The position numbers and the translations under genes were made by a program. Source: Alopecurus myosuroides (lineage: Eukaryota; Streptophyta; Magnoliopsida; Poales; Poaceae). Taken from it: a stretch of 64,000 nucleotides of DNA. The notes under the pieces are model-generated. The model was not told the DNA's origin. It did not search any database and worked only from the letters and a program-made list of their open reading frames with translations. The stretch is taken from the NCBI GenBank assembly GCA_028641055.1, contig CM054060.1, forward strand, positions 315,151,682 through 315,215,681. Direction: 5' to 3'. Of this stretch, positions 38,233 to 60,043 are shown one piece after another (position 1 is the stretch's first letter; the number at the start of each line of letters is the position of its first letter).

Positions 38233-40609
38233 GTTGGCGCCCACCGTGGGGCAACCAGCGGCGCTGGTTGGAGTTTCTGTTCGGACGGGATCTTCTTCAG
38301 CGGAGCGTGTGGTCTGTGGCCTTGTCCACAGATTCAGCTCTTTCGACTTCGTCACCGACAACGCCGGCTGTTTCGGCGGCATGGCCATGCCGGAGGGCGG
38401 CTCGGTGATCTCCTTCGGCTCTCACCTCGTCTACGTCGCCACCGTCGCCAACCGCGCGTACCCCGAGCTGGTGCATGACGCGGAGGATCCTCCCGCGGTG
38501 ATTGCTGCTCGTGGAAGGCCCGCGTGCCGCTCTGCGAACTGCGCTGAGGTGATGGTGACGGGCTTGGCGGCAAACACTGGCGCAGCCGCTACTGGCGCTG
38601 CGGCCGTCATCGAGGATCTTGATGAACCGGCTGCTGGTGGCAGGACTCACCGGCCCTACGAAAGGGAGAGCAACTTGCCGCCTTCCACGTCTACGGTTAT
38701 TCCCGCGTCGGCTACGCGACTTGGCATGCCGACTCCCACCGACATCGAGCTTCTAGCCATGAGGGAGCAGCTCGAGCGGCAACGCCTGGAGCTGCTTGCC
38801 GAGCAGGCGGAGTTGGATAAGGTAAGGTTGGAGTTGAGTTTAGATCAGCTCGAGTACAACAAGGCTCATGGCTTCACGCCAGTCGCTAGGAGGGCTAGCA
38901 GAGTGGGTGCCAATCGGCGCAACCTTGGTGCCGAGATGGCGACAGTTGTAGAGGTTCCTGCTCAGTCCGCCACCGCAAACACCTCCACCAGGCCCAGATA
39001 TAGCACGCCCGCCAAGACACTCAGAGCTGCAGAGGCTGTAGCTGCCGAGTTGCCTCGTCTTGATGGCGATGCACGTGTTAGGCAGCAAGAAAGGCTCAAC
39101 GAGTTGGTGTTGGAGGCTGCTAGGCAGAATGAGGAGTTCCGGAAGGCCAACCCGGGTGCTGGAGCCTCGCAGGTGGTGCACTCGCACGCGGCTAGATCTA
39201 ACGATCAGGCCTCATCCCCGCATCCCAGCCGCGAGAAGAGCCGCAGTGGACGTTCAGGCCGAGATAGGCAAATGCAGGTGTACGACCCGGCTGCTGCCGC
39301 GAAACAGCACGCTGTGCCGCAGCAGTCTGGTCAGGAACACAACGCTGCAAGAGCAGGCTTCCAAGCCCAAAAAGCTCAAAGCCAGGCCCGAGATGGAGAG
39401 CGTCCAGGTCCTTCTCGGCAACCCGCAGCTCAGCCTACTCGGCAGAGGCAGCAGCCGCGTGCAGTGGCGCCAGTCGCCAACCCGGTGGAGCAGCCTGCTG
39501 CTGTGCAGGTGGATAGGTATGATGACGGCTACTCGGCTATGGAGATGGCCGGCTATGATATTCATGACCGTGTTGGTGAGCGCGTATTGGCGCCTGGAGA
39601 TGCAAGGCATCAGCTGGATCGTATCAGTTTGTCAGCGCGGCTTGAGAGCACGGGTCCTCCTGGCCCCGAGTGCTTTGGCCCGCGCATCATGAACGAGCCT
39701 TCCGTGAAGGGTTTCCAGCTCGCAAGGGGCACCAAGAGCTACAACGGCAGCACCAAGCCTGAAGATTGGCTCAATGACTATGTCACCGCGGTTCATATCG
39801 CGAATGGCAACCGGAGATGGGCGGTGCGGTACGTTCCGCAGATGCTAGAGGGTCCAGCTCGCACTTGGCTCAACAACTTGCCCAAGAATAGCATCAACTG
39901 CTGGCTGGACTTCTCGGATGCCTTCATCAGCAACTTCACCAGCACATACAAGAGGCCGAATAGGCCACAGCAGCTGTCTGCTTGCAGGCAGCGAGAGGAT
40001 GAGACAGACCGCGAGTATCTTACTCGGTGGAGCACCCTGAGGAACACATGTGAAGGTGTGAATGAAGCACAGGCCATTACTTGGTTTGCGCAGGGATGCA
40101 GACATGGCAGTATGTTGTGGCAGAGGTTGCAGAGGGAGATGCCAAACACTCTGGCGGAGACCATCAAGATTGCGGATCAGTACGCACTTGGTGATCCTAC
40201 TCAGCCACTGATGGACTCCTCTGAGCCGAGAAGAAACTTCAGCAACGGCAAGCGCAATGAGTTCCGCAACAAGCGCCGAGTAGATACTCGGTATGATCCT
40301 GAAGAGGTGAACGCAGTGACTGTTGGAGCTGGTGGCAGCCAGAGGCAGAAACCTGCTAGAGCCTACGGGCAGAACCAGAACCAGGGCCAAGGCAACAAGA
40401 AGCCATTTCGCACCTCTCAGTCGGGTAGCGGGAACTCCGAGCAGCCGAAGAAGTTTGTCTTTGATGACATGAAGGATGGCCCATGCAGTTTTCACACTCA
40501 CCACCCCTCGAGGCCTGCAAACCATACTACTCGGCAATGCGAATGGTGGGATGCGATCAAGAGTGATGGCTTGCCTCCTCCTCCTCCCCTGCCAGCCTGC
40601 CAATGCTAG
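38204..40609 (+). CDS. Tat element gag
   Basis: The ATG at 38204 lies 29 bases before the LTR end and the frame crosses the PBS: MASAVTPPRQLAPTVG. The related element at 1-150 keeps the same frame, so this start is plausible. The protein is about 801 residues. A coiled-coil-rich part (REQLERQRLELLAEQAELDK) comes first. The capsid-like gag domain (YNGSTKPEDWLNDYVTAV, ARTWLNNLPKNSINCW, CRQREDETDREYLTRW) spans about 510-660. A basic tail and a Cys/His cluster (CSFHTHHPSRPANHTTRQCE) close it. A one-base shift in 40590-40603 ends the frame at TAG; the gag-pol junction continues in the next frame. Confidence 0.8.
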   Translation: MASAVTPPRQLAPTVGQPAALVGVSVRTGSSSAERVVCGLVHRFSSFDFVTDNAGCFGGMAMPEGGSVISFGSHLVYVATVANRAYPELVHDAEDPPAVIAARGRPACRSANCAEVMVTGLAANTGAAATGAAAVIEDLDEPAAGGRTHRPYERESNLPPSTSTVIPASATRLGMPTPTDIELLAMREQLERQRLELLAEQAELDKVRLELSLDQLEYNKAHGFTPVARRASRVGANRRNLGAEMATVVEVPAQSATANTSTRPRYSTPAKTLRAAEAVAAELPRLDGDARVRQQERLNELVLEAARQNEEFRKANPGAGASQVVHSHAARSNDQASSPHPSREKSRSGRSGRDRQMQVYDPAAAAKQHAVPQQSGQEHNAARAGFQAQKAQSQARDGERPGPSRQPAAQPTRQRQQPRAVAPVANPVEQPAAVQVDRYDDGYSAMEMAGYDIHDRVGERVLAPGDARHQLDRISLSARLESTGPPGPECFGPRIMNEPSVKGFQLARGTKSYNGSTKPEDWLNDYVTAVHIANGNRRWAVRYVPQMLEGPARTWLNNLPKNSINCWLDFSDAFISNFTSTYKRPNRPQQLSACRQREDETDREYLTRWSTLRNTCEGVNEAQAITWFAQGCRHGSMLWQRLQREMPNTLAETIKIADQYALGDPTQPLMDSSEPRRNFSNGKRNEFRNKRRVDTRYDPEEVNAVTVGAGGSQRQKPARAYGQNQNQGQGNKKPFRTSQSGSGNSEQPKKFVFDDMKDGPCSFHTHHPSRPANHTTRQCEWWDAIKSDGLPPPPPLPACQC
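38233..38251 (+). promoter_or_regulatory. Tat element primer-binding site
   Basis: GTTGGCGCCCACCGTGGGG follows the LTR end directly. It is identical to the PBS of the partial element at 87-105 and is also translated as part of gag. Confidence 0.8.
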
Positions 40610-41726
40610 CGTGCAGCCTACTCGCGCACCCGCAGCTCGACCGCCAGTGTACCCGAGAAGAGAGAATGTGAACCAGGTGGCTTTAGGAGCCAACCGCAAC
40701 TTCAACAACGAGAGCTACCGCAACAACAACAACAACTACAACCGCAACAACAACTACCAGGGCAACAACAACAACGGCAACAATGGGGGCGGAGGCTCCA
40801 ATCAGTACCAAGAGCACCATGAGAGCTACATGATCTTCACTTCTGAGGCAGTCGACAAGCAGTCACAGCACAGGCGTGCCATGGAGGTCAATGCAGTGAT
40901 TCCTGCTGTCCCTCACTACATGTACTGGTGCAACCAGGAGATCAGGTGGTCCCGAGTAGATCATCCCAAGGTGATGCCCAACCCGGGTACCTATGCCTTG
41001 GTGCTGGATCCTACCTTCCTGGGCCCCGAGAAGAATGTGAGGTTCAGCAAGGTGCTAATCGACAACGGCAGCAGAATCAACATTGTGTACAAAGACACAC
41101 TCGAGAAGCTTGGCATGGCCGAGAACACGATGCTGCCCAGCAAGACCACCTTCCATGGAATTGTGCCTGGGATCTCATGCAACCCGATTGGCCGAGTATG
41201 GATAGATGTGCTATTCGGTACCCGGGAGAACTGTCGCACAGAGCGCCTGCAGTTTGAAGTGGTTGATCATCAGAGCCCCTATCATGCTCTACTCGGCAGG
41301 CCTGCTCTGAGCAAGTTCATGGCTTCCACGCATGTTGCGTACCTGAAGATGAAGATCCCTGGTCCCAATGGCATAATCACTATCGCTGGCGATTACAAGA
41401 AGTCCATGGAGTGTGCCTCAGCGAGCTCCAAGCTGGCAGAGTCAATGGTGATTGAGGCCGAGAAGAAGAAGATGTATGAGGTGGTGGCCATGGCGCAATC
41501 TGCGCAAGCTGGCGCACAAGGTGTGCCGAGTACCCAGCACGGCACTGCTTTTCAGGCTGCCAAGGAGACAAAGAAGATCCAGGTCGACCCCGAGTTCCCC
41601 GACCGCGTAGCCATCATTGGCTCCGGGTTGTCGGAGAAATAGGAAAGCGAGCTCATCCACTTCCTCCGTGAGAATCGGGATGTTTTCGCCTGGACCAATG
41701 AAGATCTACCAGGAGTCCCGAGGGAG
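40604..41726 (+). pseudogene. Tat protease region, stop at 41640
   Basis: After an Asn-rich linker encoded by AAC repeats (40718-40790), the frame has a retropepsin motif VLIDNGSRINIVY (D-N-G in place of the usual D-T/S-G) and the flap-distal YHALLGRPAL. A TAG at 41640-41642 separates it from RT; CAG to TAG would explain it, because the frame goes on ESELIHFLRENRDVFAW into RT. The D-N-G variant may be lineage-normal or a defect. Confidence 0.75.
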
Positions 41727-43085
41727 TTGGTTGAGCACTCTTTGCATGTGCGTCCTGACGCCAAGCCCGTGAAGCAGGCTATGCGCCGTTTCGGAGATGA
41801 GAGAAGGAAGGCCATTGGTGACCAAATCACCAAGCTGCTGATAAGTAACTTCATCATGGAGGTGCTGCATCCGGATTGGCTAGCCAACCCGGTCATGGTC
41901 GAGAAGAAGAAGGAGGATCCCAAGGCTGCTACCGCATGGCGTATGTGCGTCGACTACACCGACTTGAACAAAGCATGCCCCAAGGATCCTTTCCCGCTAC
42001 CTCGCATCGATCAGGTGATCGATTCCACTGCTGGTTGTGACCTGCTGTCTTTCATAGATGCCTACTCTGGTTTCCACCAAATTGCACTCAATCCTGTTGA
42101 TCAAATAAAGACTGCCTTCATTACCCCGTACGGGGCTTATTGCTATCGTGTCATGTGTTTTGGCTTGAGGAATGCGGGTGCAACCTATCAGAGATGCATG
42201 CAGAAATGCTTGCACGATCAACTCGGCAAGAATGTGCAGGTGTACGTAGATGACATTGTCATCAAAACGAATAAAACACATACTCTGCTTGCCGACCTGG
42301 AGGAAACCTTTGCTAACCTACGCAAGTACAAAATGAAGCTGAATCCGAGTAAGTGCACCTTTGGTGTACCGGCTGGAAAGCTACTCGGTTTTCTAGTTTC
42401 TAGTCGGGGCATTGAAGCCAATCCTTCTAAGATAAAAGCTATTGAGAGCATGTCTTTGCCGAGATCACTGAAAGATGTGCAGAAGTTCATAGGTTGCTTG
42501 GCATCTCTGAGCCGTTTTCTGGGCCGAATGGGCGAGAAGGCCCTGCCCCTATACCAGCTGATGAAGAAAAGTGACAAGTTTGTCTGGACTCCGCAAGCGG
42601 ACGTGGCATTCAACGAGCTGAAGGCAATGCTGGGTAGCGCTCCCATCTTGGCTAGTCCGCTACCCAAAGAGCCAATGCTGTTGTATATTGCTGCGACCAA
42701 CCGAGTAGTCAGTGTGGTGATTGTGGTGGAACGAGAAGAAGAAGGCAAGAGTGTGCAGCGCCCAGTATACTATCTCAGTGAGGTGTTGTCTAGCTCCAAG
42801 CAGAACTACCCGCATTACCAGAAGATGACCTATGGTGTGTACCTAAGCGCCAGGAAGCTGAAACATTATTTCCAGGAGCACCCCATCACTGTCGTGAGTT
42901 CTGCCCCCATCTCGGATATCATGGGCAACAAGGAGGCGAGTGGCAGAGTAGCCAAATGGGCGATCGAGCTAGCTGCGTACGCTCCCGCGTATACGAGAAG
43001 AGAAGCCATCAAGTCACAGATCCTGGCGGAATTTCTTGTGGACTGGGCCGAGGTGCAGTATGAACCTCTGCTCCAGTTTCCAACT
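41727..43085 (+). pseudogene. Tat reverse transcriptase and first RNase H
   Basis: RT motifs in order are FIMEVLHPDWLANPVMV, RMCVDYTDLNKACPKDPFPL, FIDAYSGFHQIAL, VMCFGLRNAGATYQR and the active site YVDDIVIK (about 42243-42266). The connection/RNase H region (LLYIAATNRVVSVVIVV, PVYYLSEVLSSSKQNYPHYQ) lacks the catalytic FDAS-type aspartate. This is expected in the Tat lineage, where a second RNase H takes over. A one-base deletion near 43080 shifts the frame just before the second RNase H. Confidence 0.85.
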
Positions 43086-43700
43086 ATTGGAGGATGCATT
43101 TTGATGGCTCGAAAGTGAAGGAAGGCCTTGGTGCTGGTGTCGTGCTTACGTCACCCAAGCGAGATCAACTCAAGTATGTACTGCAGATTCATTTCAAGGC
43201 GTCCAATAATGTTGCCGAGTACGAGGCAGTAGTACATGGCTTGCGAGTAGCCAAGGAGGTTGGAGTGCAACGCATCATATGCTATGGAGATTCAGATCTG
43301 GTGGTGCAGCAGGTCTCAGGCACTTGGGATGCTCTGGATGCCAACATGGCGTCGTATCGCTTCCTGGTGCAGTCTATGACAGGATTCTTCGAAGGCTGTG
43401 AGTTCCAGCACATCCACCGAGCAGAGAATGAAGCGGCAGACGAGCTATCCAAGTTGGGATCTTCTCGGCAGTCCATCCCGGCGGGGATTGCCTTGGAGCA
43501 TTTGAGGAAGCCATCCATCAAGCCTTCCCCCAACTCGGAATCCATTTCCGTTCCTTCTCTGCCAAGTGAGGAATCTGATCCCATGGACATTGACTGGGAG
43601 AATGCTACAGGAAACTCGGGGACTGCCACTCCCTACTCGGGACTGTCATTCCCTACTCGGGGACTGCTGTCCTTAACCCGGGGACTGTCGCATTCATTGA
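43086..43700 (+). pseudogene. Tat second (plant-type) RNase H and linker
   Basis: MHFDGSKVKEGLGAGVVL, NNVAEYEAVVHGL, ICYGDSDLVVQQV and AENEAADELSKL supply the D, E, D, D residues of an active RNase H fold. It is followed by an acidic linker (EESDPMDIDWENATG). The linker holds a short tandem array of CTCGGGGACTG units (43613-43690). A frame change between this linker and the integrase (43690-43765) breaks the polyprotein again. Confidence 0.8.
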
Positions 43701-43764
43701 GGAGGTCCTTGCCAACCGATCAGGGCTACAGAGAAGTGCTCCTAATCCTCCTGAGCAACCACAA

Positions 43765-45087
43765 GTGCCCGTCCCAATGGAACTGGACGAACCAGTGTTT
43801 CCTATGCGGGAGACACCGAGTTGGGCTATGCCCTTATTATCCTTTCTAAGGGACGGTACCTTGCCAGAAGATGAAGTTACTGCAAGGCAGATTCAGAGAA
43901 GATCCAAGGGCTACACCATAGTCAGAGATGTGCTGCACAAGAGGAGTGCCACAGGCGTGCTGCAACGCTGTGTGGACCCAGAAGAAGGAGGAGAAATCTT
44001 GTTGGAGATACATCAAGGAGAATGTGGGCATCACGCCTCATCTCGGGCATTGGTCAAGAAAGCTTTTCGGCATGGCTTCTACTGGCTCACTGCTCTGCAG
44101 CAAGCTGAAGATATTGTGAGGAAGTGCAATGGCTACCAGATGTTCGCAAGTAAGATTCACATGCCTGCTTCCGAGTTGAAAACGATTCCTATCACATGGC
44201 CGTTTGCTGTTTGGTGTCTGGATATGGTTGGCCCCTTCAAGCCGGCTAAAGGCAACATGCCACATATCTTGGTCATGGTGGACAAGTTCACCAAGTGGAT
44301 TGAAGTGAAGCCTATTCGGAAGTGCGATGGGGTCACAGCTGTGAAGTTCGTAAAAGATGTGATCATGAGATATGGCTACCCGCATAGCATCATCACCGAC
44401 AACGGCACCAACTTCACAGAGGGGGCAATGGTGCGGTTCTGCAGAGATAAGCACATCCGACTAGACGTCGCGTCAGTCGCGCACCCTGCCTCCAATGGGC
44501 AAGTTGAGAGAGCAAATGGTATGGTACTGGCAGGCATAAAGCCGAGGCTGATTGAGCCACTGCTGAAAACACCTGGGTGTTGGCTAGACGAGTTGCCAGC
44601 GGTGTTGTGGAGTCTAAGGACTACCCCTAACCGGTCAACCGGCTACACGCCATTCTTCTTGGTATACGGGGCTGAGGCCGTGTTGCCAATAGACTTAGAG
44701 CATGACTCCCCCCGAGTAACCCTCTACACTGAGGTGGAGGCGAGAGAAGCTCGAGAAGACGACGTTGACCTGCTTGAAGAAGCAAGAGAGCTGACTCTGT
44801 CACGTTCGGCTATCTACCAGCAAAACCTGCGGCGTTATCATAGCCGAAAGGTGAACCCAAGGGTTTTCCGAGAAGGAGACATGGTCCTTAGGCTTGTGCA
44901 GCGCACAGCCGGGATGCACAAGTTGTCTCCTCCATGGGAAGGGCCTTTCATTGTGAGCAAAGCGCTGCACAACGATGCTTACTATCTTGTAGATGTGCGC
45001 CCACCACAGGCGAACAGGGCAGATAAATCCGGAGAGGAAACCAAGCGCCCTTGGAATGTAGCTCTACTCCGTCGTTTTCATTCGTAA
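43765..45087 (+). pseudogene. Tat integrase
   Basis: The zinc region HQGECGHHASSRALVKKAF...DIVRKCNGYQMFA has Tyr (TAC, 44134-44136) where the second zinc cysteine is expected; TGC to TAC is one G-to-A change. The catalytic core keeps D (WCLDMVGPF), D (IITDNGTNF) and E (ASNGQVERANG). The C-terminal region has GDMVLRLVQ and LSPPWEGPFIV and ends NVALLRRFHS. No chromodomain is present. The first 40 or so codons (MPVPMELDEPVFPMRE) are linker. Confidence 0.85.
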
Positions 45088-45760
45088 GCAAAGATGTTTA
45101 TGTACCCTCTTATCCGAGTTGAAATTCTACTCTGCAATCTGAAAGTGTTCTCGGGGACTGCCCTCGCTCAAGTTTGCTCTAAGTGTTCTTACTCGGCTTT
45201 ATCTTTTGCCTATTCGGTTGCTCTACTTCAAAATTCAAAGGTACATCGAGTACTGTGTTTAAACCTATATGCCAACTCTTCGACTTTGCTGCTGTCCGAA
45301 ACCCGGCTTCATGGCAAGCAAGAGAACAAGCAAAAGGTCCATGAGCACAAGAAAAATTACTAAGGAAAGGAAGAGTGCAGGAACCGAGTAGGGTGTTTTT
45401 ATTACTGTTCTGTGACTTGTCTTTTCGGCTAAGTGGTGGGCTGCGTTACTATGATTGTTTCTAAGCGGCTAAGTATTTGCAGCTCTACTCTTTAACTCTT
45501 GTGACTCGAATACCAAAAAAGCAACAAGTTGCGGGTAGAGCTGAGACGAAAAGGGAGAGTGAATAAGAAATGCAACTCGGGGACTCGCATAATAACGCAA
45601 CTCGGCATCCAGCCCAGGTTGAAAAAATTGATTAAGTTGGAAATAACAAAGTGGGAATAAAATTGAGTAGCAACGGAATAAAATAGTCTGATACATCTGT
45701 TCCCGGCATCCCGGGGATCTGATAAGTGTTTGAGTAAAAATTTGCAGGATAAAATCAAAT
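45088..45760. other. Spacer between integrase and the antisense gene 3' end
   Basis: AT-rich, without protein-like frames. It should contain 3' ends of sense pol and antisense transcripts facing each other. The unit CTCGGGGACT occurs twice (45149, 45577). Confidence 0.55.
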
Positions 45761-48700
45761 TCAGGTCGACGGGGTGTACTCGGTGCTCGCCTTGGTTGCT
45801 TCGTCTTCCTCAGTGGCCATGGTGGCGTCTACCTCTGCGATGGCATCAGCAGTCTTCGCTTGCTCGGCGTCAGGCTCGGTGGTGACCTGCTCGGAAGTTG
45901 CAGTGGCCACCGAGATGGGCGCTGTTGCGGAGGCGGAGCCGGTCTCGGGGGCGTGGGTGCGCACCGTGTCGTCAAGTGCGGCTCCTGAGGAGGTGCCGAA
46001 CTCGAGGGCAGCTGTGTCGATCTCCTCGACTTCTTCATCGCTACTCGCGATGACCGCGGCCTTCCCCTTGCCCTGGGGAGAATCGAAGAATCCCAACTCG
46101 GGATCTGTTTCTTCATCCTCCTCCTCGTCCTCCTCCATCTCGGTGTCGGGCTCAGGGAGGCCATCGATGAAGGTGGCCGTATCCGCGCACTCCGCAACCT
46201 CATACGCAATCAGTTTGCGCGTGGTCACGCAGCTGGGATCCATCTCCCACTTGGAATTGGCGCGCTTCCCGCGGATGACCTGCATGTTCAGATTCTCGTA
46301 CCAGGAGGCGACGCAGAGCAGCATCAGATCAGCGCCCGCCCGAGCTCCCGAGGCGCGCCACTTCTTAAATTCGGCTTTCACATTCCGCAGCTTCAGAGCA
46401 AGGCCACCAATGGTTGTCGGCGTGGGATCTTCAGGCCAGAATAGCTTGTGGAGCTCGAAGCCAACACGCACCAGGTCGGTGCCCACGCCGGCTAGGCGTT
46501 CGAAATGCCCTCGCATCACCAGCAGGCTGTCCTCGATCTCGGCTCTGGTGTCCGCAGCCTCGCCCTTCTCAACACGAGCTGCTTGGGCCTTGGCCAAAGC
46601 AGGGGCGCAAGCAGACACGATGTCAGGAAAGATTTCTGCAAGAAGCAAGCGACAAGTTCAGTAACAGAATCAGAGAAGAGGTATGACCGAGAAGAAGAGA
46701 TGCAGAAAGGAAAGAACTTACTATTCAGCTCATGGCGCAGCTGCTGCAGCTGGATTTTCCACTCCTCTTCATTGGACACATGCTTCTCCTCAAGCAAGCG
46801 CAGACCATCCAGCTGAGTAAAGAGCCCAGCATTGGCCTTTGTCAGCACTTCGCACTCCTGCTCGAGGGTTTTTATCTTGGCATTGAAGGTTGTCTCGGCT
46901 TTTGCCTTCTCGGCGATGGCTCTGTCCCTCTCATCACCAAGCTTGACAGCATCCTGGAGTGCCTTCTGCAGCTGGAGTTGCAGCGTCTCCATCTCGGTAG
47001 TGTGTGCACTCTGCAGAGCTGCAGATTGGCTTGCTAGTCGCACCTCCACTTCAGCAGGTTTGAGGCAATCTTGATGCTCTAGAACAAACTTCTTATGATC
47101 TTCTGAAAAGAGCAAAGCACGGTTAGCAGAGAAGCAAAGGAAACAGACACAAGGGCAAACCGAGTAGACGGAGGTTTACCTTCAAGCTTCTTGATGGTGG
47201 TCTCGGCATTCGCAACAAAGGCACGGCAGTTCTCGTGTTCGTCAGCAAGGGCTTTCAGTTTCCCTGCAGAGTAGAAATGGTTAGCGCAAGAAAGCAGAAG
47301 CGGGCGTAAACAAAAAACGCAAGAACCGCGCAGCTAAAAACGTACCTTCCACTTCAGACAGCTTCAGAGTGCTATCCTTCGCATTCTTACCGGCTGCCTC
47401 CGCAGCTGCTTTCTCTCTTTCCAGTGCAGCAATTCGCCTCCTGGCGATAGCATGGTTCCAGAGAAGCTGGCGATGCAGATTGGTCCGCTTCAGAACGCTA
47501 TCCTGAGAAGCGAAAGGAAAACAAGTTAGGCAAAGAAGTGAAGATTCAACCCGAGAAGGCGGCTACTCGGGAGAGTGTCCGCCTACTCGGCCAGAATCTC
47601 GGGGACTGGGTGATGGATAAGGATAAGAGGAAGAGAAGAAAAGAAGTAAAGATGCAACTCGGAAAAGATAAGTTGAGGCTTACCGCGTAAGACTGCTCGA
47701 GATCTTCTGCGTTCTTGCGGTGCACGAACATCTTGGCAGCCAGAGTAGCAGAGGTGGTCGAGACGGTCATGGGTTTGCAACCCAAGTCCACCTTGTTCCA
47801 GTCCTGGCGCATGTGGTCGATGTCACCCAAATCGATGCCGTTCCAGTTGGAGTTGCCGAGAACCTTGCTGTCCCATTTGGCGTCGATGAAGCCAATCAGG
47901 TCGAGAACTTGCTCCAGGCTCTGGGAGGTTATCGCCTGGTCTTGAGCTCCCCGAGAAGCAATGGAGACAGATCTGTCCTGATTTGGGGCTGGGGGCCTGG
48001 AGTCCACCGCCACGGCTTTCCTTCCTCTCGTGAGAGCAAGCTTCCGGTCCTCGACGGAGAGGCCAATCTGGTGCTGTTGGCTGACCTTCACCATGTAATC
48101 CGGGTAGAGGGGCTGATCAGCTATGGTAGCGGCGGCAGGAACCGCACTGGGATTGCGGATAACCAGCTGCTTGGACTGGCCAGCTGATGTCGGCGGCGGC
48201 TTGTCGGCAGCCTTCTTCTTTGCTGTCTCTTTCTGAGCAGGTGGCTTCTCGGAGGTTGGCTTCTTGATCTTCTGCATCTCGGTTTCCTTCTTCTCGGTTT
48301 TCCCTTCCTCGGCTGCCTTCTTCTCGACTGCCTCCTTCAGAGCATCTAGGGCTTGTTTCCTGGTTACTCGCCCGGCAGGAGGGCTGGCTGCGTCCTTGGT
48401 CTGTGGCACCAAGGAGGAATCTGGCGGTGCAGAGCCTTGATCAATGGGTGGCACCACGAACCCACCACTTCGTGCAGCATCTGGTTGCGCGCTACTCTGT
48501 GCAGCGCCTGGTTGCGCACTGCTCAGGGGATACTCCTCAGTCATGGCTATATCTTCTACCCGCTGCTCGGCAGCGGGATTCTCTTGTCCGGCAGCGTCTG
48601 TGGCTGGCTGCTCAGGTTCGGCTTCTTGCCGCTCGACGGCGGCATCATGGTGCATCTCTGTATCTTGATCTTGATTCCCCTCGGCGGCGTCGGCTGGAGG

Positions 48701-49550
48701 GGAAGGTGGTTTCTCCTGATGGGCAGCATCCTGCGGCTCTGGCTCAGCGTTCTGGGCATCAGTGCCCTCTGTTGATGCATTGGCGGCATTGTTCTCGTCG
48801 CCATCGAGGTCGATTAATTTGTCGACATCGATGGTAGTCTTCTTCTGAGTCTCGGTGGATGCAAGAGCGGCATCTGCGTTCAAGGGGGCTCTGAAGAGGA
48901 AATTGGGCTCGAAGATAAGAAAAGGGCAGAGGAAAACAAGAGAAAACAGTGAAGGAAAGGGACTGGGAGTCAACCGAGAAGAGCAAGATAAACTGAAACA
49001 TGCAACCGATAAGAAACTTACGCGGTGGTGGAGGGAATTGTTCGCCTTGTTCTCTTCACGACCGCCTTCTTGGTCGCCTTCTCGGTCGCCTTCTTCTTCT
49101 TGGCGGGGGGCTCTAGGGCGCCGCTGCCGGTCCGCTTGCGGGTAGCAGGTGCAGCAACAGAAAGAGGATTGACCTCAAGGACTCTCTCCTCCTCGTCCTC
49201 GTCATCATCCTCAGCATTTGCAGCATCTGTGAAATAGGGAGGAAGGAAAACATTTCAGAAACAGCAGGCAAAGGGCTTGAGCTTTTCGCAGAGGGAGAGC
49301 GCGAATTCAGTTACCTTCGAACTCGTCATCGGACCACTCTCGAAGAGATGTTTCGGCAGGCTGCTTCTCTGTCGTAGGAGAGTGAGGAAGGTTGATCTGG
49401 TCTGCAGTCTCAAAAGAGGCCTTGTCGTCCTCCTCTCAGTCGGCAAACCAATTGCCTTCAAAGCGCTCACAGCTCTCCATAAGCTGGCGGTTGAGGACCT
49501 GAAGAGCGGAGAAGTGTCACAAGTTAGCCGAGTAGCGGGAAGGTATCCTA

Positions 49551-49730
49551 CTCGGATAGGCGTGCAAACACAAAGCACACTAAGCCTAAGCAATTTTACC
49601 GAATGTTCTACTCGGAAAGGCGTGCGAGCATCAAGCTTATTAAACCTAAGAATTATTTCCGAGTAGGTTACCCGACAAGGCGTGCAGGCACAAAGCACAC
49701 TAAGCCTATACAATTCTGCTAAGTACTCTA
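49551..49730. repeat. Three 60-bp tandem repeats in antisense intron 1
   Basis: Units starting CTCGGATAGGCGTGCAAACA, CTCGGAAAGGCGTGCGAGCA and CCCGACAAGGCGTGCAGGCA are spaced exactly 60 bp. A partial fourth begins at 49731 (CTCGGTACAG). They share GGCGTGC...CACACTAAGCCTA. The array lies wholly within intron 1 (49821-49499). Confidence 0.8.
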
Positions 49731-49821
49731 CTCGGTACAGAATGCAATTGCTAGTTGCAGCCAAGAGAGAAGATTTTCTAGTCGGATGGCAAATATCGAA
49801 AGCAGAATAAGGAGAACGTAC

Positions 49822-50715
49822 CCGGGGAATCGGTTTCGTGCGGCTGAATGGGATGAACCCATACTGCCAGTGGTCACCAAGGCTAGTTGTCAGGATGGCC
49901 CTGGCGTGCGCGGGAACATCCGCGTTGTCGAGCTCGATGGTGGTCGTCCTGGTGCAGTCGCGGGGGCCTCCCATATAGCACATCAGATGGCTGCGCTCTT
50001 GCAGAGGCAGCACGCGATTCTTGATCCAGCAAGCCACAGGATCATCGCTCTTGAGGCCCTCGTCGATTAGAACACCGAGCCGCTCATCCATCTCCATCGA
50101 GTTGAGGTCATTGGAGGGCTTCGCCTTCCAATTTTTCCCGGATGGAGCGCGATTACTCCAAGCGGGAAGGTTAATTCTGTCGGTTACCTGGCCTCCTTCC
50201 GTGGCGGGGATGTTCTTGACGTAGAGGAAGGTCTTCTGCCACATCCGGACGGATTCCAAACCCTTGATGCGAGGGTGATTGGTCCCCGACCGCTGCACCA
50301 TCATGGCGCAGCCAGTGTCGGTTGTGCGGCTGCTGGCGGCCGCGCCATCCTTCTTCCCGGTGGTTTGCTGGCGGAGATGGAAATACTTCAACCAGGTATC
50401 CGTCGTGGGATGGATACCAAGGAAGGCCTTGCACACCACGGCGTGGTAGGCGAGGAAGACGACGGCGTTTGGTGGCAAGTGGTGCATTTGGAGGCCGAAG
50501 TGGTCGAGGAAGCGGCGGAGGAAGTCGGAGGCCGGCAGGCCGATTCCGCGCTCGAAGTGCGACAAGAACACGACGTGCTCGCCCTCCTACGGGGTTGGCA
50601 CGATCTCGCCCTCAGACGGTCGGCATTGAACACCAGGAGGAACCCTCCGGGTGTTCACGAGCCAGGCGCAATCCTCGGCGGTGACGTGCGAACCAGCCCA
50701 GCCGGCGCGAGACAT
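49822..50715 (-). other. Antisense exon 1 with Transposase_28-like domain
   Basis: MSRAGWAGSHVTAEDCAWLV starts the exon. After the TAG at 50589-50587 the frame goes on EGEHVVFLSHFERGIGLPAS, DFLRRFLDHFGLQMHHLPPN, AVVFLAYHAVVCKAFLGIHP. This is the GxGLP...F.R..L..FGL..H.L.PN......F...CEAFLG pattern of the putative gypsy-type transposon domain (Transposase_28, PF04195). The TAG is CAG with one C-to-T change. Exon 1 is 298 codons and ends PFSRTKPIPR before GTACGT. Confidence 0.75.
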
Positions 50716-50882
50716 GGTCGCGAGCAGGGAAGGGGGGAAGAACTGGAAAGATTTGGTCGGGTGGATTGAATTCGCGGCGGCGCAAAAGATTGCGCGGCGG
50801 CGGAGAGCTCGGCAGCGGAGAAGAACAGAGAGACGAAAGAGGAAAAATGCGAAGGAGGAGAAGAGGAAGTTACCGGCGGGGG

Positions 50883-50890
50883 TATTTATA
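50883..50890 (-). promoter_or_regulatory. TATA box of the antisense gene
   Basis: TATAAATA on the minus strand (in GAGGATATAAATACCCCC) lies about 170 bp before the antisense ATG, giving a predicted 5'UTR near 140 nt. It suggests the gene has its own promoter in the 3' part of the element rather than using an LTR. Confidence 0.6.
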
Positions 50891-51395
50891 TCCTCTCCGC
50901 GGTTTACCGTTACCATCGGGGAAGTGGGATCGATCGTGGCGTGTGGTGGGGTCTGTGGCCGGCTGGAAACGCACACAAGCGCGGGATGCGCGCGTAACGG
51001 CCGCAAATGATCCCACCGCCAGATCGTGGCCTATTATTACGCTTGATGGGACATAACGAGCCGGTGGGCCCGCTCCGTGAAAACTGGGCGCGTGGCACGT
51101 CGTGTCGTGGGCAGCGAAACGACTGGGTCACGGATGCTTGACACGCGTCCAGTCGCAGCACGGAAGGCTGGATAATGTTGTGCGCTGCAGAGACGCCAGA
51201 GGAGAAATTCTCTAAGTCTTTTTACTCGGTTACAGAGTAGAGAGCTGGTGCTACTCGAAAGACAGGAAACTCAAGGTACTTTCTAGAGTACTACTCGGAG
51301 GTCTTTTACTCGGTATCTTGAGGTTCAAGGGCTATGTTGCAAAGATTGGTTTTAAGCTGGCAGAGCCTAGTGAACAAGTTCGCAAGACTCAACCA

Positions 51396-51409
51396 GCTTC
51401 GGGGACTGC
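51396..51409 (+). promoter_or_regulatory. Probable polypurine-tract region of the Tat element
   Basis: AGCTTCGGGGACTGC immediately precedes the 3' LTR start at 51410. The same CGGGGACTG core recurs at several sites in the 3' half of the element. It is a weak PPT by composition, so the call rests on position. Confidence 0.4.
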
Positions 51410-52297
51410 TGTCGGGGGGTTACCCCCGAGTAGGGTAAAGGCAAGTGGTAAAGGCGACTGTCAGAAGAGAGGATTGGTCGAGTAGCCGCCTACCCGGTAC
51501 TTGCTACCCGGTTGACTGCTACTCGGTCTCACCTCAAGATGACCAGAAGGAAGAATCATTCAAGTTCTCTCCATTCGAGTAGAAGAGTTGGCCCGAGTAA
51601 AATTGGCGGGAACCTACTCGGGCCAGAAAGTCAAAGGAGTCGTTCTGACACAGGATCCCGCGTATCCTGGGTCCGTACTTGGCAGTATTCGAACAACTGT
51701 TCATCTGGGACCGGCCTGCCTGACAGTGACAGCATGGAAGCAGGCCGTCGCAGGATAAGGGGGCCCTACTCTGTGTTTGGCACAGTGATACCAGTCTGTC
51801 CCCTTGTTTTGCCCAACGACTTTCCAGATGCAGCCAAGATTAGGAACCAAAGCTGTCAGCGGGAACCCGGAAGAAGGACGATGTGCACACTATGTCGACA
51901 CTTGTCTAGGTTTGGACGTATCCGGCTGGGCACCAGGTATATAAGGTGCCCCGCCGCCTCCTGCGTGAGGCATCGCCACATCGCAGGTTGAGATCGAACA
52001 CCTTGTGACCTAATTCTTGACCTAGTTCATCACGTAGAGAGAGGAGTGGCTACTCGGTAGCAAGATCCATTGTACTGTGGCTACTCGGTGAGACACCAGA
52101 ATACATACAGAAAGGCAGGAGTAGGGGTTTTACCTCCTCACGAGGGCCCTGAACCTGGGTAGATCGTGTTGTTTGCAGTGTTTACTTCGTACCCCACGCG
52201 GCTACTCGTCGCGTGATCCCTCCCCGAGCACCTCCAGCGTCCTTCGTCCCCACATCTTTAGCCATCCCATGGCATCTGCCGTGACACCACCACGACA
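51410..52297 (+). repeat. 3' LTR of the Tat element
   Basis: 888 bp, matching 37346-38232 with three substitutions seen (GAGTCG/GAGCCG, CAGGAT/CAGAAT, GGGACC/GGGAAC) and one extra G. Its TATATAAG (51938-51945) and the gag ATG near its end face the F-box gene, so read-through transcripts would carry a 27-codon frame MASAVTPPRHRSPIAARSRG... ending in TGA. Confidence 0.95.
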
Positions 52298-52403
52298 CAG
52301 GTCGCCCATCGCAGCTCGGTCTCGCGGCCGCGCCACCCAGAGACAGCTGTGAGCAGCGCTGCTGCTGCAGCACGCGAGCACCGGAGCAGCCTAGCAGGAA
52401 TTG
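52298..52403 (+). other. F-box gene 5'UTR exon 1, remaining part
   Basis: It starts with the right CAGGT duplication (52298-52302). GC-rich leader follows, ending GGAATTG|GTAAGCC, a good donor. Together with 37140-37345 it forms the original first exon, now split by 14.95 kb. Confidence 0.6.
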
Positions 52404-53019
52404 GTAAGCCTGCTTCCGCTTGTTCATATCATCGACCGCCTGATGCCCTGCTGTATTGTTGTGCCCACCTGCCCCCCATGAACCCTAAATCCCCATCCCC
52501 AATGCCTAAGCCGAAGTGTTACATTACTTGTTTTAATTATTATTGTGTGCTGATATTTTCGGAATCGCCAACTTATTTCTGTTTTTTTGCTTGTGTTTGT
52601 TGTAATGGTGGATTCACTCACATTTGAAACATATGATTGAACTAGAATGTTGTGAATCAATAGGATGTTTATATTGTTCATTTGCCAGCCCACCCTCCAA
52701 TTTTTTTTCTGGTCCGCCAATGCATCAGGCAGTTTTTATTAGGTCACTGTTCTGTTACTGAAATTGTCCATGTTTTGTGTCAATTCACTAGTTTCTTATG
52801 CTAGTTTGGTGTTACTTTTATTGTACAATTGTCGAAAATACAGAGACTATTTTGTTTATGTAAGACTATTCCCAAATCCCAACTATTTGTATTTGCTATT
52901 TTTGTTAACATTAAACATATTTGGTGAGCTATAATATTGTAAAACCTATTTATATTGTTCCTTTCGGTAACACCGTGTTATATGCGATGCTGGTTTTTTT
53001 TTTTCTAAATATGGCACAG
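52404..53019 (+). other. 5'UTR intron of the F-box gene
   Basis: GTAAGCC at the start, a T-rich tract (TTTTTTTTTTTCTAAAT) and GGCACAG at the end. The 616-bp AT-rich interior contrasts with GC-rich exons on both sides. Confidence 0.6.
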
Positions 53020-53731
53020 GAACTCTGAAAATTTTCCGGCTCCACCACAGTCACCGAGAGACATGTCAATCGTGCGTCGAGTGCGGTCTCATGCGTCTGG
53101 CGGTGAGGACCGCCTTAGCGCGCTCCCCGACGAGCTGATCCTCCTCATAGTAAGCAGTCTGGACACCCAAACAGCGCTCTCCATGGCCGTCCTCGCTAGA
53201 CGCTGGGCGCGCATCCCGCGCAAGCTGTCTGCGCTCGACTTCAGGGTGAGCGACATACTCCCGCCGGAGTATGACCGGACCGTCGCCCTTCGCCAGCGCA
53301 ACTTGCCGCGTGACAGCACTTTGGCCGGGATACTCGACGGTCTCAAGGCGTGCTGTGAGATCGACGCAATGCGGTCGTTTTCCAGTGGAGTTACGAGCTT
53401 CCTGGAAGCGGACGGTGGCCTTGACCGTCGCGTGAAGACCCTCCGTCTCGAGTTTTTTAAGACGTACAACGGCATCTGTGCGGACCGCCTTATCAACACG
53501 GCGGTTGGCGCATGGGGAGTGGAAGATCTGGAGGTTGTCGTTAGGCGATCGTCCGGTGATGGTCACACGCCGGCATATAGCTTGCCCCACGACTGCTTCA
53601 ACCTCTGGTCGCGCCTTCGCAGCCTGACGCTGGGCAAGTATTGCGCACTGCCACCGCTGCATATCTACAGCACGCTAACCAAGCTCGTCCTGCGTGATAT
53701 GCCTGCTTCCATGCCCGTGGACATGTACGAC

Positions 53732-53745
53732 AAGGTGTTCAAAGA
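53732..53745. repeat. LINE target-site duplication, left copy
   Basis: AAGGTGTTCAAAGA, repeated at 60044-60057 after the poly(A) tail. Fourteen bases is typical of L1-type target-primed insertion. Confidence 0.9.
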
Positions 53746-56193
53746 TCAAACACCGGTGTGGCGGGTACGGCAGTGGTTGGGCAGTTCGCGGTTGGTACGG
53801 TGGCAGCAACTGGAGTGGCGAAACGCAAGAACAAAAAGAAGAAGACGGCTCAGGTAGTGGCTACTGGGACTCACGAGGCAGCTGTAGCATTACCAGTTCC
53901 TGTGGTTGAACAGTTGGCCCTCCCCGCCGCTGGACCCGTGGGAGCTGATGTTGCCGCGGCAGTGACGGTTCGGAAGACTAGGTGCTGGAGATGCGAGGTG
54001 AACACACATGCGACGAGGGATTGTACGGTGGAACACTACTGCTATGTGTGCGACTCAAAAACGCACCCTATGAAGAAGTGTCCTACGCTCAGGCTTCCTA
54101 AGCCGACTGTGTCCATTGGTGGGATTGGTAGCTTGCATACGATGTTCTCCCAGTTTCCGGACAGCTTGTTTCAGGAGGGAGATGTGTCTGGAGGGCCGGT
54201 GGCGCTGGTCACTGTGGTTGGTTCTGCCGCTACGGCGAAACAGGTCGAGGCCACGGTTGCTCGCATGAGTTCTGCGCCGCGGTGGAAGTGGGAAGCACTT
54301 CCTAGCGGGGATAATCGGTTCAAGGTCGTGTTCCCGTCTGTGACAGAATTGGATAGATTTGATGGGATGGATTTCGGGGTGCCATCTCAATCTACTAGAC
54401 TGCTGTTCAGCAAGTGGAAGCCGGTAGACGTTGAGCCTAAGTTGGAGTTCGAGCAGGCATGGGTCCATGTGGAAGGTGTGCCAAATCCTTTGAGACACTT
54501 CTTGGGTCTGTGGGCGGTTGGATCCCTCATCGGTATTACTTTAGATGTGGACCTGTTGGCTCTACGTCGCAGAGGTATTGTTCGGCTGAGGTTGGCACTG
54601 TCAGATGACGAGGTGTTCAACAAGGTGGACGAGGTGGGTCCTTACGTGAGAACTGATGGTGTGCTGCGTTTGAAGGGATATAGCTTCACTTTTCGCCCGG
54701 AGCCTGAGGATTATGTGCCAGAGACAGATTTCGTACCTTATATGTGGGACTTGAAGACGCCCACGGAGTCTTCTACCAGGGGGGTCCGAGATGATGTACC
54801 TGATGCAGCTGCTGATCTGGAGGGCGATGCGGGAGATGCTACGAGTATGGCTATTGACTCGGTTCCTGCGGATGGTGGTAATACGGCCCATGCTGAGGCG
54901 TTGGAGTTGCTGAAGAGCTATGCATTGACGCCAATCAACTTGTCCCCGGCCACTCCTAGGGGAAAGGAGATTGTCCGGTCACTGCAGTCATCAGGCGATT
55001 TTCTCGCCAAGCTGGCGTCGGTGGAGACGCCGTCTTGTGCGGCTTCTTCGGGTGGTTCACAGGCGGCGGGATGCGCCAGTCCGATCGTCGCCCAGGCGGG
55101 GCGTAAGGACGCGCTGCAGGCGGTCCACAGCAGCTCCCGTCGGCTGGCAGCTGGGCCAGGCGGGGCGACCCTATCTGTCGCTCAGGCGGAGCTGACGGTA
55201 GGTGGCCCGTTAGGAGCTGGGCCCAGCTGCTCCAGGGCGCATGTTGCTGGGCCGGGCGGTTCGACGGTATCCACCGCCCAGGCGAAGCGGGTGGCGGATG
55301 CTGGGCCGGGCGGCTCGACGCCATCCACCGCCCAGGCGCAGCGGACGGAGGCCCATCCTGCGGCGCGCGGGGAGGAGATGGAGGCTACCGCCCAGGCGAC
55401 AGTTAGTGGCGGAGGGCGGGCTAGTGCTGGGCCTTCTCATGCACTGCCTGTGCCTGCCGCTACCAGGCGGGGCGGCTCGCAGTCACCTGCTGCGCGCGTC
55501 GACGACGGGCCGAGGGAGCGCACGCCCCCCCCGGTTCGTGAGGAGTCGATGGCTGCGGTTCCGGTCCCGGTCTTGGCGGATGTGGACATGGTGGTCGGGG
55601 GGGTTTCTTCTTCGACATTGCCCCCCTCCGCCGTGGCGCCTTCCTCTGGAGTTCTTGGGCAGCCTAAAGGTGGGCTGAGACGTAGCGCTCGCCACCTAGT
55701 TGCTGCAGACGGGGCTTCATCGACGGACGAGGACGCCATGTCCAAGGCCATGCGGCGAAAGGCGGCACTGTACTCAGCTCCACCGCAGGGTATGGGTTCT
55801 TATCCTCGTTCATTTCTTTCTTTTTCAGATACCAAGTTATCCTCTAGTTTAGGTGTAGTTGGTGTTTCATTAGGAAAAAATGACAAGGAGATCACGTTGT
55901 CCACTAATGTGTTGAAGCATATGGAATTTGATCGTTTAACGGTCAAACCGAGTGCTTCTTCCATGGTGGACATACCTCACATGGATGATGATTCAGCGTA
56001 TGCCTCTTCGGATGGACAGCTTTTATCACATCTAGTGGGGGAAGTGACTGAGGTGGGATTGGATGAGGACGGGCTTGGATCCTTAGTTGATCTATATGCA
56101 TCCGGCCGGAAATCCAAAACCGCTAAGCAAAAGAGGAAAAACTCACCGCGAAACGTTGCGAGACCGCCTAAAAATCCATGTGTTTCCCGATGA
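53746..56193 (+). CDS. LINE ORF1 (nucleic-acid-binding, 5' truncated)
   Basis: The frame is open from the insertion point; the first in-frame methionine is about residue 105, just after two zinc knuckles (CWRCEVNTHATRDC and CYVCDSKTHPMKKC, both C-x2-C-x4-H-x4-C). The true start is therefore missing. A lysine run (KRKNKKKK) precedes the knuckles. A DUF4283-like domain follows (LDRFDGMDFGVPSQSTRLLF...WVHVEGVPNPLRHFLGLWAV). The middle (about 440-600) is a low-complexity tract with repeated AGPGGST.STAQA units. The protein should coat LINE RNA. It ends at TGA 56191-56193, overlapping ORF2. Confidence 0.85.
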   Translation, partial: SNTGVAGTAVVGQFAVGTVAATGVAKRKNKKKKTAQVVATGTHEAAVALPVPVVEQLALPAAGPVGADVAAAVTVRKTRCWRCEVNTHATRDCTVEHYCYVCDSKTHPMKKCPTLRLPKPTVSIGGIGSLHTMFSQFPDSLFQEGDVSGGPVALVTVVGSAATAKQVEATVARMSSAPRWKWEALPSGDNRFKVVFPSVTELDRFDGMDFGVPSQSTRLLFSKWKPVDVEPKLEFEQAWVHVEGVPNPLRHFLGLWAVGSLIGITLDVDLLALRRRGIVRLRLALSDDEVFNKVDEVGPYVRTDGVLRLKGYSFTFRPEPEDYVPETDFVPYMWDLKTPTESSTRGVRDDVPDAAADLEGDAGDATSMAIDSVPADGGNTAHAEALELLKSYALTPINLSPATPRGKEIVRSLQSSGDFLAKLASVETPSCAASSGGSQAAGCASPIVAQAGRKDALQAVHSSSRRLAAGPGGATLSVAQAELTVGGPLGAGPSCSRAHVAGPGGSTVSTAQAKRVADAGPGGSTPSTAQAQRTEAHPAARGEEMEATAQATVSGGGRASAGPSHALPVPAATRRGGSQSPAARVDDGPRERTPPPVREESMAAVPVPVLADVDMVVGGVSSSTLPPSAVAPSSGVLGQPKGGLRRSARHLVAADGASSTDEDAMSKAMRRKAALYSAPPQGMGSYPRSFLSFSDTKLSSSLGVVGVSLGKNDKEITLSTNVLKHMEFDRLTVKPSASSMVDIPHMDDDSAYASSDGQLLSHLVGEVTEVGLDEDGLGSLVDLYASGRKSKTAKQKRKNSPRNVARPPKNPCVSR

Positions 56194-59100
56194 ATGGCTT
56201 ATTCACTAATAGCAGAGGTCTTGGAGACTTGGCTAAACATTTGAATATTGCACAATACGTCAGGGATCACGATTTGGACTTTCTGGCTATCTCCGAAACA
56301 GGGAGGCGAGATTTCCAAGTGAGTGTTTTGAACCGCCTTTCAGGTGGTATCGACTTTACTTGGCATTCTATTCCTCCTCGCGGCAGGTCGGGGGGTATCT
56401 TACTAGGCGTTAAAACTGACTCCTTTGATGTGTTAGCAAGGTCGGATGGTGATTTTCATATTAAATTACACCTCCGTAACCGTGCCGACAATTTCGTATG
56501 GAGTTTAGTCGCTGTGTATGGTGCTGCCCAGGAAGAGTTCAAAGAGGCTTTTCTTCGGGAATTGGTTAACTTGGCTAATACTAATCCACATCCAATATTA
56601 ATTGGTGGCGATTTTAATATGCTAAGGTTTCCATACGAGAAAAGCCGGGGACGGTTTGATGGTCATTGGCCTTTCCTGTTCAACGCTGTCATTGATAGTT
56701 TGGACTTGAGAGAGGTTTACATGTCCGGAAGACAGTTCACCTGGGCAAATAGTTTGCCGGAGCCTACATACGAAAAGCTAGATCGCGTATTAATGAGTAC
56801 CGATTGGGAAGTTAAATTCCCATTGGTAACGGTACGTGCTCTAGAACGTATTGAGTCTCTGTCAGACCACGCCCCTTTGCTTCTTTCAACTGGTACATCA
56901 AAACCAAAAGGCCATACTCAGTTCAAGTTTGAACTAGGTTGGTTTTTGAGAGATGGTTTCGATGATCTAGTAAAGAAAGTATGGCATAAACCGGTTGTAG
57001 GTGATAACCCGATACGGAGGTGGAATAATAAAATGCGCAATTTGCGTAAATATCTCCGTGGATGGGCGAGACATACGACCGGGATGCTAAAGAAGGAGAA
57101 AGAACGTCTTTGTTCCATTATTGATGAGTTGGACCGGCTCGCAGAAACTAGGTTGCTATCTATGCAAGAGATTGAACTGAAAAGTCAATCCAATGCGAAA
57201 GTAGCACATATGTTGCGGGAAGAGGAACTCAAATGGTATCAAAGATCGAAGGCTCAATTCATTCTTGAAGGAGATTCGAATACTCGTTATTTCCATAATG
57301 TTGCTAATGGCAGACATAGGAAAAAACGGATTCAAAGTCTCCAACAAGAGGAAGGTCTCATCGAGGGACAAGAGTGTCTCAAGACTTATATCACAAAGTT
57401 CTATAAAGATCTGTTTGGGGCTCCCGAAGTGGGTAATATTACCATGGATGAGAGCCGCACAGATGATATTCCCCAAGTTTCAATGGAAGAAAACGCTTTT
57501 CTTACTGCTCCCTTCTCTGAAGAGGAGGTAAAGAAGGCGATATTTCAGATGGAACATAATAAGGCACCTGGTCCAGATGGTTGTCCGGCAGAGTTCTATC
57601 AGCATTTTTGGGAAATTATTAAACATGATCTCTTAGAAATGTTTGATAGCTTGCAGAGTGGACATCTGGAGTTATATCGCCTTAATTTTGGGGAAATCGT
57701 TTTGTTACCTAAGGTTTTGAACGCAGAACGGATACAACAGTACCGTCCTATTTGCCTTCTTAACGTTAGTTTCAAAATCTTTACTAAGGTTGCAACTATT
57801 AGGCTGAATTCGGTGGCAGACCATGTGGTAAAACCTACACAGACTGCTTTTATGCAGGGTAGGAATATCCTAGATGGGGTCGTGACTTTACACGAAACCG
57901 TACATGAGCTGCACACGAAAAAGCTTAATGGGGTAATCCTCAAAATAGACTTTGAAAAGGCTTATGATAAAGTGAATTGGGAGTTTCTACAACAGACTCT
58001 GAGAATGAAAGGATTTTCAGAGGAGTGGTGTACCCTAGTTCGCAGTTTCGTAGCTGGAGGAAGTGTGGCTATCAAAGTCAATGACGATATTGGCCGGTAC
58101 TTCCAAACAAAGAAAGGCTTGAGACAAGGTGATCCGCTATCGCCCGTATTGTTTAATATTGTGGCAGATATGTTAGCAATCATGATCGATCGAGCCAAAG
58201 AAAATGGCCTAATTGAGGGAATAATTCCACATCTTGTAGATGGGGGATTGTCGATCCTTCAATATGCAGACGATACAATTCTATTTATGGAGCATGATTT
58301 GGAGAAAGCGGCGAATCTGAAATTAATACTTTCAGCGTTCGAGCGTTTATCCGGATTAAAAATTAATTTCCATAAAAGCGAATTGTTCTGCTTTGGCGAG
58401 GCCCATGATGCAGTTGCGCAGTATACCGAGTTATTCGGATGCGAGCAAGGTCAGTTTCCTATTAAGTATCTGGGAATACCAATACATTACAGGAGATTGA
58501 CTAATGCAGAATGGGGCCAAGTCGAAGAGCGTCTGCAGAAAAGGCTAGCTAGTTGGAAAGGAAAATTGTTGTCACTTGGTGGACGACTGGTACTCATTAA
58601 TTCAGTCCTTACTAATATGGTACTGTATATGATATCATTCTTCCAGTTACCCAAAGGAGTCTTAAAAAGATTGGATTACTTCCGATCTAGATTCTTTTGG
58701 CAAGGTGACAACGAGAAAAAGAAATATCGATTGGCCAGATGGGATGTAGTTTGTCGTCCACGAGATCAAGGGGGGCTTGGTATTCATGATCTCCATGTCA
58801 AGAATTCAGCCCTACTTGGTAAATGGATTTTTAAACTACTAACCGAAGACGGCGTTTGGCAGACTATCCTGAAACGCAAATACATAGGCTCGAAAGCAAT
58901 GTCACAGGTCACGTGGAGACCAGGTGATTCACACTTTTGGGCTGGACTCATGGCGACCAAAAATAAGTTTTTTCGCTATGGGGTATTTAAGATTAAGGAT
59001 GGATCACAGATACGGTTCTGGGAGGACAAGTGGTTAGGCAATACCACACTCAGAGAACAGTATCCGGCCTTGTACACCATTGCGCGACATAAGGAGGATA

Positions 59101-59867: not shown

Positions 59868-60043
59868 CATTGACATTCTACAGAGGATTTCGTAGCTTTA
59901 CAGTCTACAGAGGATTTTGTAGCTTTGTCATTTTTGTTTATTTTCATTTTCGGATTGAGGCTGTGTGCATCTCACGATGCAGAGGCCGGGTGTAATGCTT
60001 TAATTTTTGAGTAATAAAGCCCTTTATCAAAAAAAAAAAAAAA
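59868..60043 (+). terminator. LINE 3'UTR, poly(A) signal and tail
   Basis: It has an imperfect direct repeat of TCTACAGAGGATTTYGTAGC (starts about 59878 and 59907), the poly(A) signal AATAAA at 60013-60018 and an A run from about 60029 to 60043 that merges with the duplication at 60044. Confidence 0.85.

Follow-up and report, generated by a model that had tools for sequence, protein, structure and literature searches.

Results

An intron-rich antisense gene in a probable Retand-type retrotransposon

The 64,000-nucleotide stretch of the Alopecurus myosuroides genome analyzed here (C4:315151682-315215681, hereafter the window) contains a complete long terminal repeat (LTR) retrotransposon, likely of the Retand type (Ty3/gypsy, Tat clade) as judged from its domains. 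A gene of eight predicted exons and seven predicted introns lies on the opposite strand of this element, between pol and the 3' LTR. In 26 further copies of the gene in the host genome, the splice sites, reading frame, start codon and TATA box are conserved, and the ratio of non-synonymous to synonymous substitution (dN/dS) in the joined frame is near 0.2. We regard it as very probable that this is an antisense accessory gene of a Retand-type element, predicted to be transcribed, spliced and translated into a nuclear protein that acts in trans. That the gene is truly spliced, a prediction made from the sequence, is highly likely.

The gene runs from 50715 to 45761 on the minus strand, and all seven introns have GT-AG borders. 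The joined coding sequence of 3,987 nt comprises 1,328 codons plus a stop codon, with only two internal nonsense codons (codons 43 and 319). The introns have phases 0, 1, 2, 0, 1, 1 and 1 (introns 1 to 7) and a G+C content of 0.43–0.48, versus 0.52–0.62 in the exons. Exon 1 (49822–50715) contains the start codon, the Transposase_28 domain (residues 48–115) and the nonsense codon at residue 43, and is followed by intron 1 (49499–49821, 323 nt) and exon 2 (49315–49498), which holds the nonsense codon at residue 319. Intron 2 (49227–49314, 88 nt) precedes exon 3 (49022–49226), which encodes an acidic and then a basic segment with motifs resembling a nuclear localization signal (NLS). After intron 3 (48891–49021, 131 nt), exon 4 (47684–48890) encodes a low-complexity segment and has a better conserved 3' part. 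Intron 4 (47503–47683, 181 nt), exon 5 (47346–47502), intron 5 (47264–47345, 82 nt), exon 6 (47180–47263) and intron 6 (47103–47179, 77 nt) lead to exon 7 (46722–47102), which is coiled-coil-like. Beyond intron 7 (46636–46721, 86 nt), exon 8 (45761–46635) encodes residues 1038–1328, including the conserved C-terminal part and an acidic tail, and ends with the stop codon at 45761–45763. A TATA box (TATAAATA, 50883–50890, minus strand) lies 175 nt upstream of the ATG.

Intron 1 holds a tandem repeat of a 60-bp unit in 2.7 copies (49548–49708), and a partial genomic copy of the gene (L024) consists of two overlapping matching pieces that meet inside this repeat. A sense-strand open reading frame (ORF) at 45753–46664 was considered as a gene and ruled out, since the tblastn matches of related proteins to the window are all on the minus strand.

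A first-pass annotation of the sequence had proposed eight minus-strand exons with GT-AG borders, about 1,328 codons and two nonsense codons; this model was reproduced, and shuffled sequences gave far shorter structures. The joined frame has 2 internal stops, versus 40 and 53 in the other two frames of the joined sequence, and shuffling of the exons gave a mean of 45.7 stops with a minimum of 24 (n = 1,000). The best spliced chain was also determined by dynamic programming, allowing up to seven introns and up to two nonsense codons under a fixed splice-site filter set to admit all seven real introns. This chain reached 4,629 nt on the gene strand versus 1,212 nt on the opposite strand, and in 100 dinucleotide shuffles the mean was 720 nt and the maximum 1,128 nt. 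It exceeds the 3,987 nt of the model because the search may pick other sites. Five of six other real stretches or strands gave 432–1,272 nt; the sixth (plus strand, 5000–11326) gave 4,197 nt because it contains the long gag-pol frames of another element.

Conservation of the gene among genomic copies

The 3.57-Gb host assembly, which includes seven very large contigs, was searched with the 4,955-bp gene, and at least 33 matches were retrieved (31 of 14,024 first-look candidates scored). The analyzed set comprises 26 matches besides the window, each covering more than 4,700 bp. Six matches were dropped as partial: L024 and L036 contributed two pieces each, L038 contributed one, and one had no locus.

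Conservation of the exon borders in copies had been set in advance as a point on which the gene model could fail. Of the 364 splice-site dinucleotides in the 26 copies, 361 are intact, and the three losses fall in separate copies. For GT and AG dinucleotides elsewhere, retention is 79% and 81%, respectively, in introns and 74% and 78% in exons. All seven introns are present in the aligned copies, with lengths of 77 to 325 nt. The TATA box that the first-pass annotation had noted is identical in every copy. The start codon is in frame in all 26, at codon 1 in 10 copies and one codon upstream in 16, and 24 copies have the stop codon at its expected position. Ten copies are free of both nonsense codons and frame-breaking indels. 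All 26 copies have an LTR match upstream of the gene, which in one of them extends over only 176 bp. The LTR pair formed by L010 with L039 differs at 12 of 795 bases, so two insertions dated independently of each other contain the introns. Among the three copies fetched, the stretches of L040 and L041 that were expected to include the 5' LTR gave no LTR match.

Purifying selection on the joined protein

Divergence at codon positions 1, 2 and 3 is 0.077, 0.058 and 0.175 across 351 pairs of copies, and the third position is the most divergent one in each of the eight exons. In the joined frame, Nei-Gojobori dN/dS within the two copy groups is 0.21 and 0.18; it is 0.22 across the groups and 0.19 in comparison with L037, the most distant of the copies. 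When the alignment columns were read in either wrong frame, the values were 1.2–1.9, so that the comparison of synonymous and non-synonymous change among copies reveals purifying selection, as had been anticipated. Of 35 exon indels scored against the window copy, 22 are multiples of three and the other 13 are each private to one copy; among intron indels, one of 17 is a multiple of three.

The two copy groups do not diverge evenly along the gene: they differ by 6–7% around 48015–47415 and by 29% over the 300 bases starting at 48615, a pattern that would suit either an exchange of segments between lineages or unequal rates of evolution.

Protein features and grass relatives

The Pfam domain Transposase_28 (PF04195) was identified at residues 48–115 of the joined protein (E = 1.4e-17; 64.1 bits versus a curated cut-off of 26.2), and no other Pfam domain was found in the window protein. 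A basic segment with NLS-like motifs (residues 402–420) follows an acidic segment. Residues 831–1037 show a hydrophobic heptad periodicity that was as strong in 3 of 2,000 shuffles and are coiled-coil-like. The C-terminal part is conserved and predicted to be helical, with an acidic tail after residue 1195. The protein features read from the letters alone, a Transposase_28-like N terminus, a basic segment, coiled coils and an acidic tail, were thus all recovered. Three exon pieces of the window protein had no match in NCBIfam, and two relatives gave weak SMC-type and other matches there. A profile search of solved structures returned no match, and the structure predictions are of low confidence, with a mean predicted local distance difference test score of 42 for exon 1 and 57 for exon 8.

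A search with residues 44–330 retrieved 26 proteins, 25 from Lolium multiflorum and one from Festuca glaucescens. Among the approximately 8,000 candidates listed for each, the whole joined protein gave one weak hit in Lolium and the C-terminal 531 residues gave none; low-complexity words probably swelled the candidate lists of these two queries. The search of plant proteins and Pfam suggested in the first-pass annotation thus yielded 27 grass relatives, all from Lolium or Festuca, where the first-pass annotation had named Triticeae. In 21 of them, matches to both the N- and the C-terminal part of the joined protein occur in the expected order. Transposase_28 was matched in all 27 members of alignment A1. 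A profile built from 18 relatives, with the window sequence excluded, shows no gap where exon 1 joins exon 2, and the C-terminal part is aligned too. No relatives were detected in scans of viral contigs and prokaryote genome contigs, as expected for a plant gene.

The host retrotransposon and its lineage

The gene had been described as lying antisense inside a gypsy retrotransposon, and one complete element enclosing it was delimited at 37346–52297 (14,952 bp). It is flanked by a 5-bp target site duplication, CAGGT, at 37341–37345 on the left and 52298–52302 on the right. Its plus-strand LTRs are located at 37346–38232 (5' LTR, 887 bp, TGTC...GACA) and 51410–52297 (3' LTR, 888 bp). Just 3' of the 5' LTR lies a plus-strand stretch (38235–38252) that is putatively primer-binding-site-like. 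The gag-pol region (38060–45087, plus strand) consists of several open frames, delimited from stop to stop and with Pfam domains assigned on the separate pieces: gag (38060–40609), reverse transcriptase (RT)-RNase H (41643–43118), a second RNase H (43064–43849) and integrase (43594–45087). In the window copy it is interrupted by a nonsense codon (41640–41642) and by frame changes, some of which may be natural. Three substitutions and a single-base difference in length separate the two LTRs. At a substitution rate of 1.3e-8 per site per year, this would correspond to an insertion about 0.13 million years ago. With LTRs this similar and all seven introns present, the introns have therefore passed through a recent round of copying.

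The Pfam order on the separate open frames is RVT_1, RT_RNaseH, RVT_3 and rve, with a second, archaeal-type RNase H between RNase H and integrase, an order that is also that of Ogre. In the published scheme, a second RNase H in such a position indicates Ogre or Retand (Neumann et al., 2019; PMC6317226). The domain order of pol thus leaves Ogre or Retand, and the antisense Transposase_28 gene points to Retand. Antisense genes with a Transposase_28 (TRP28) domain typify Retand elements and are reported for 97% of recent clusters (Vicient, 2025; PMC11963269), and one was found within the region from pol to the 3' LTR (45088–51409; PF04195, E = 1.4e-17). This region measures 6,322 bp, compared with 2,933–6,566 bp in published Retand elements (PMC11963269). 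The published recent clusters have LTRs of 315–1,194 bp and internal regions of 7,380–12,869 bp (PMC11963269). Taken as ranges and not as a strict definition, these include the LTRs of the present element and end just below its internal region of 13,177 bp.

Antisense ORFs in Tat elements had already been noted as known. By its Transposase_28 domain, the gene belongs with the TRP28 genes already published for Retand, and an antisense gene at this position is therefore not new. What looks new is that the known accessory gene appears, from its sequence, to be one intron-rich, eight-exon gene kept by selection. The published survey lists antisense ORFs of at least 600 bp one by one, including TRP28, Smc, mitotic checkpoint and others (PMC11963269). 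There these ORFs are treated as separate, whereas here the TRP28 and coiled-coil parts are exons of a single gene. Neither PMC11963269 nor PMC7264820 has any word that begins with "intron", and the latter, a 2020 review, calls for a search for antisense and spliced transcripts.

The gene also resembles gene23 of Grande, which is antisense between pol and the 3' LTR and has its own promoter upstream (PMC7264820; PMC11963269). Antisense transcription from that promoter has been reported (PMC7264820), and the Grande antisense protein is reported to be nuclear (PMC7264820; PMC11963269). The likeness to gene23 is one of description; in the element studied here, the TATA box kept in all 26 copies and the basic NLS-like segment are read from the sequence. 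Ogre, another Tat-clade element, has a spliced intron in gag-pol, but this is a single sense-strand intron removed from some transcripts only (PMC6317226), in contrast to the seven predicted antisense introns described here. A protein gene opposite gag-pol is also found in human T-cell leukemia virus type 1 (HTLV-1) as HBZ, a parallel drawn in PMC11963269 that is functional only.

Other Transposase_28 loci and neighboring elements

A total of 57,073 first-look Transposase_28 candidates were obtained from the host genome, and 150 of them were scored. A distant locus, L008, shares about 28% of residues with the gene and has a GTAAGT...AG interval at the apparent place of intron 1, in the same phase. 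No such clear case was seen at the other seven distant loci (L001–L007), where only GTA[AC]G donors inside the open frame were sought. L001–L003 and L005–L007 (C1:509.3 Mb and 541.7–543.7 Mb) have Transposase_28 open frames with approximately 69–78% mutual DNA identity. Five of these six loci lie within about 2 Mb (541.7–543.7 Mb) and are among the best-scoring of the 150. This C1 group may be a host gene cluster.

Elsewhere in the window, an F-box/leucine-rich repeat (LRR)-type gene (53009–60874) is split by a long interspersed nuclear element (LINE) into an F-box part (53009–53857) and an LRR part (60011–60874). The LINE has DUF4283 and endonuclease-RT-zf-RVT frames and a poly-A tail, and is flanked by a 14-bp duplication, AAGGTGTTCAAAGA, at 53732 and 60044. 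Another gypsy gag-pol occupies 4161–9427; its two long frames abut and contain gag, protease, RT, RNase H and integrase domains.

Discussion

Transcription of the antisense gene would be driven by a TATA promoter of its own, next to the 3' LTR, and the transcript would then be spliced and translated. The element itself would be copied via sense RNA, in which the introns read CT...AC and would not be removed. The introns may thus survive copying because the sense RNA bears only the reverse complement of the splice signals, an account that fits a copy with near-identical LTRs that keeps all seven introns. The protein is presumably nuclear, as suggested by its basic segment and by analogy with the related Grande protein. 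DNA binding has been predicted for TRP28 (PMC11963269). The TRP28 domain would touch DNA and the coiled coil would hold a self-associating complex together, so that the protein could act in trans on copies of the element. We tentatively suggest that it might be a DNA-bound regulator or a nuclear helper of the element's own copies.

Several observations weigh against this interpretation. Three copies have each lost one splice site, and 16 of the 26 carry at least one nonsense codon or frame-breaking indel, in addition to the two nonsense codons of the window copy. The copies share ancestry and were drawn from the 31 scored candidates, and intron-less or diverged copies would be under-sampled because the query contained introns. 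The introns diverge less than fourfold sites (0.131 versus 0.244 between copy groups). The difference is seen next to every exon from 1 to 7, and also when CpG sites are left out, and dS is therefore not a clean neutral measure. Relative to intron divergence, dN comes by simple arithmetic to about 0.4–0.65. It is possible that the introns themselves are constrained. Six of the 27 relatives match the N-terminal part only, and among the other 21 there are two whose C-terminal match is weak (E of 7e-5 and 2e-4). The relatives are predicted gene models and not cDNA, and so support the joined protein without proving splicing. Finally, no fold supports DNA binding, because the structure models are poor.

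Other readings of the antisense region were weighed against a single spliced gene. GC-rich DNA has few stops, and GT and AG are frequent, so a chance mosaic of open stretches picked by eye could resemble a gene; however, none of the 100 shuffles exceeded 1,128 nt, versus 4,629 nt for the gene strand. A mosaic is refuted by these shuffles, the conserved splice sites and frame and the dN/dS values, and has next to no probability left. The published practice of listing antisense ORFs of at least 600 bp apart from one another (PMC11963269) would agree with several separate, unspliced ORFs whose "introns" are spacers. We consider this very unlikely, given that 361 of 364 splice dinucleotides are kept, that the short exons 2, 3, 5 and 6 show an excess of third-position change while having no plausible start of their own, and that 21 of 27 relatives have both ends in one predicted protein. 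The antisense unit might instead act as RNA, with antisense or double-stranded RNA tuning the element, as raised for such transcripts in the 2020 review (PMC7264820). The low intron divergence would be in keeping with a constrained DNA or RNA sequence, but a dN/dS near 0.2 in the joined frame only and frame-preserving exon indels need a protein. An RNA role in place of the protein is thus very improbable, and one in addition to it could hold.

The origin of the spliced gene is a separate matter, and one proposal is compatible with it: an ancestral element captured a host gene with its introns in antisense orientation, and relatives of that gene survive in the host. A nuclear gene captured in this way would bring along introns of ordinary appearance, like the seven predicted here, and Transposase_28 open frames with 70–78% mutual DNA identity cluster within about 2 Mb at C1:541.7–543.7 Mb among the best-scoring places. 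On the other side, PMC11963269 reports no TRP28 similarity outside transposable elements, and we regard host capture as conceivable but rather doubtful. The chances appear even that a single ancient spliced gene underlies the antisense ORFs of Retand elements across flowering plants, with TRP28, "Smc", "mitotic checkpoint" and the rest as its exons. The GTAAGT...AG interval at the place of intron 1 in L008 is a hint of this beyond the element family of the window.

RNA-replicating elements are expected to lose introns, and a seven-intron gene under selection shows an escape route. If the reading of a spliced antisense gene is true, the antisense position has allowed the Retand lineage to carry a complete gene with its introns through many cycles of copying via RNA. 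Only the nuclear transcript of the opposite strand would be spliceable, and the copying RNA and the message would be separate, an arrangement impossible for gag-pol. The annotation of an abundant group of elements would change from fragments to one spliced gene. This gene model gives the full-length protein needed for tests of function and answers the call of the 2020 review (PMC7264820).

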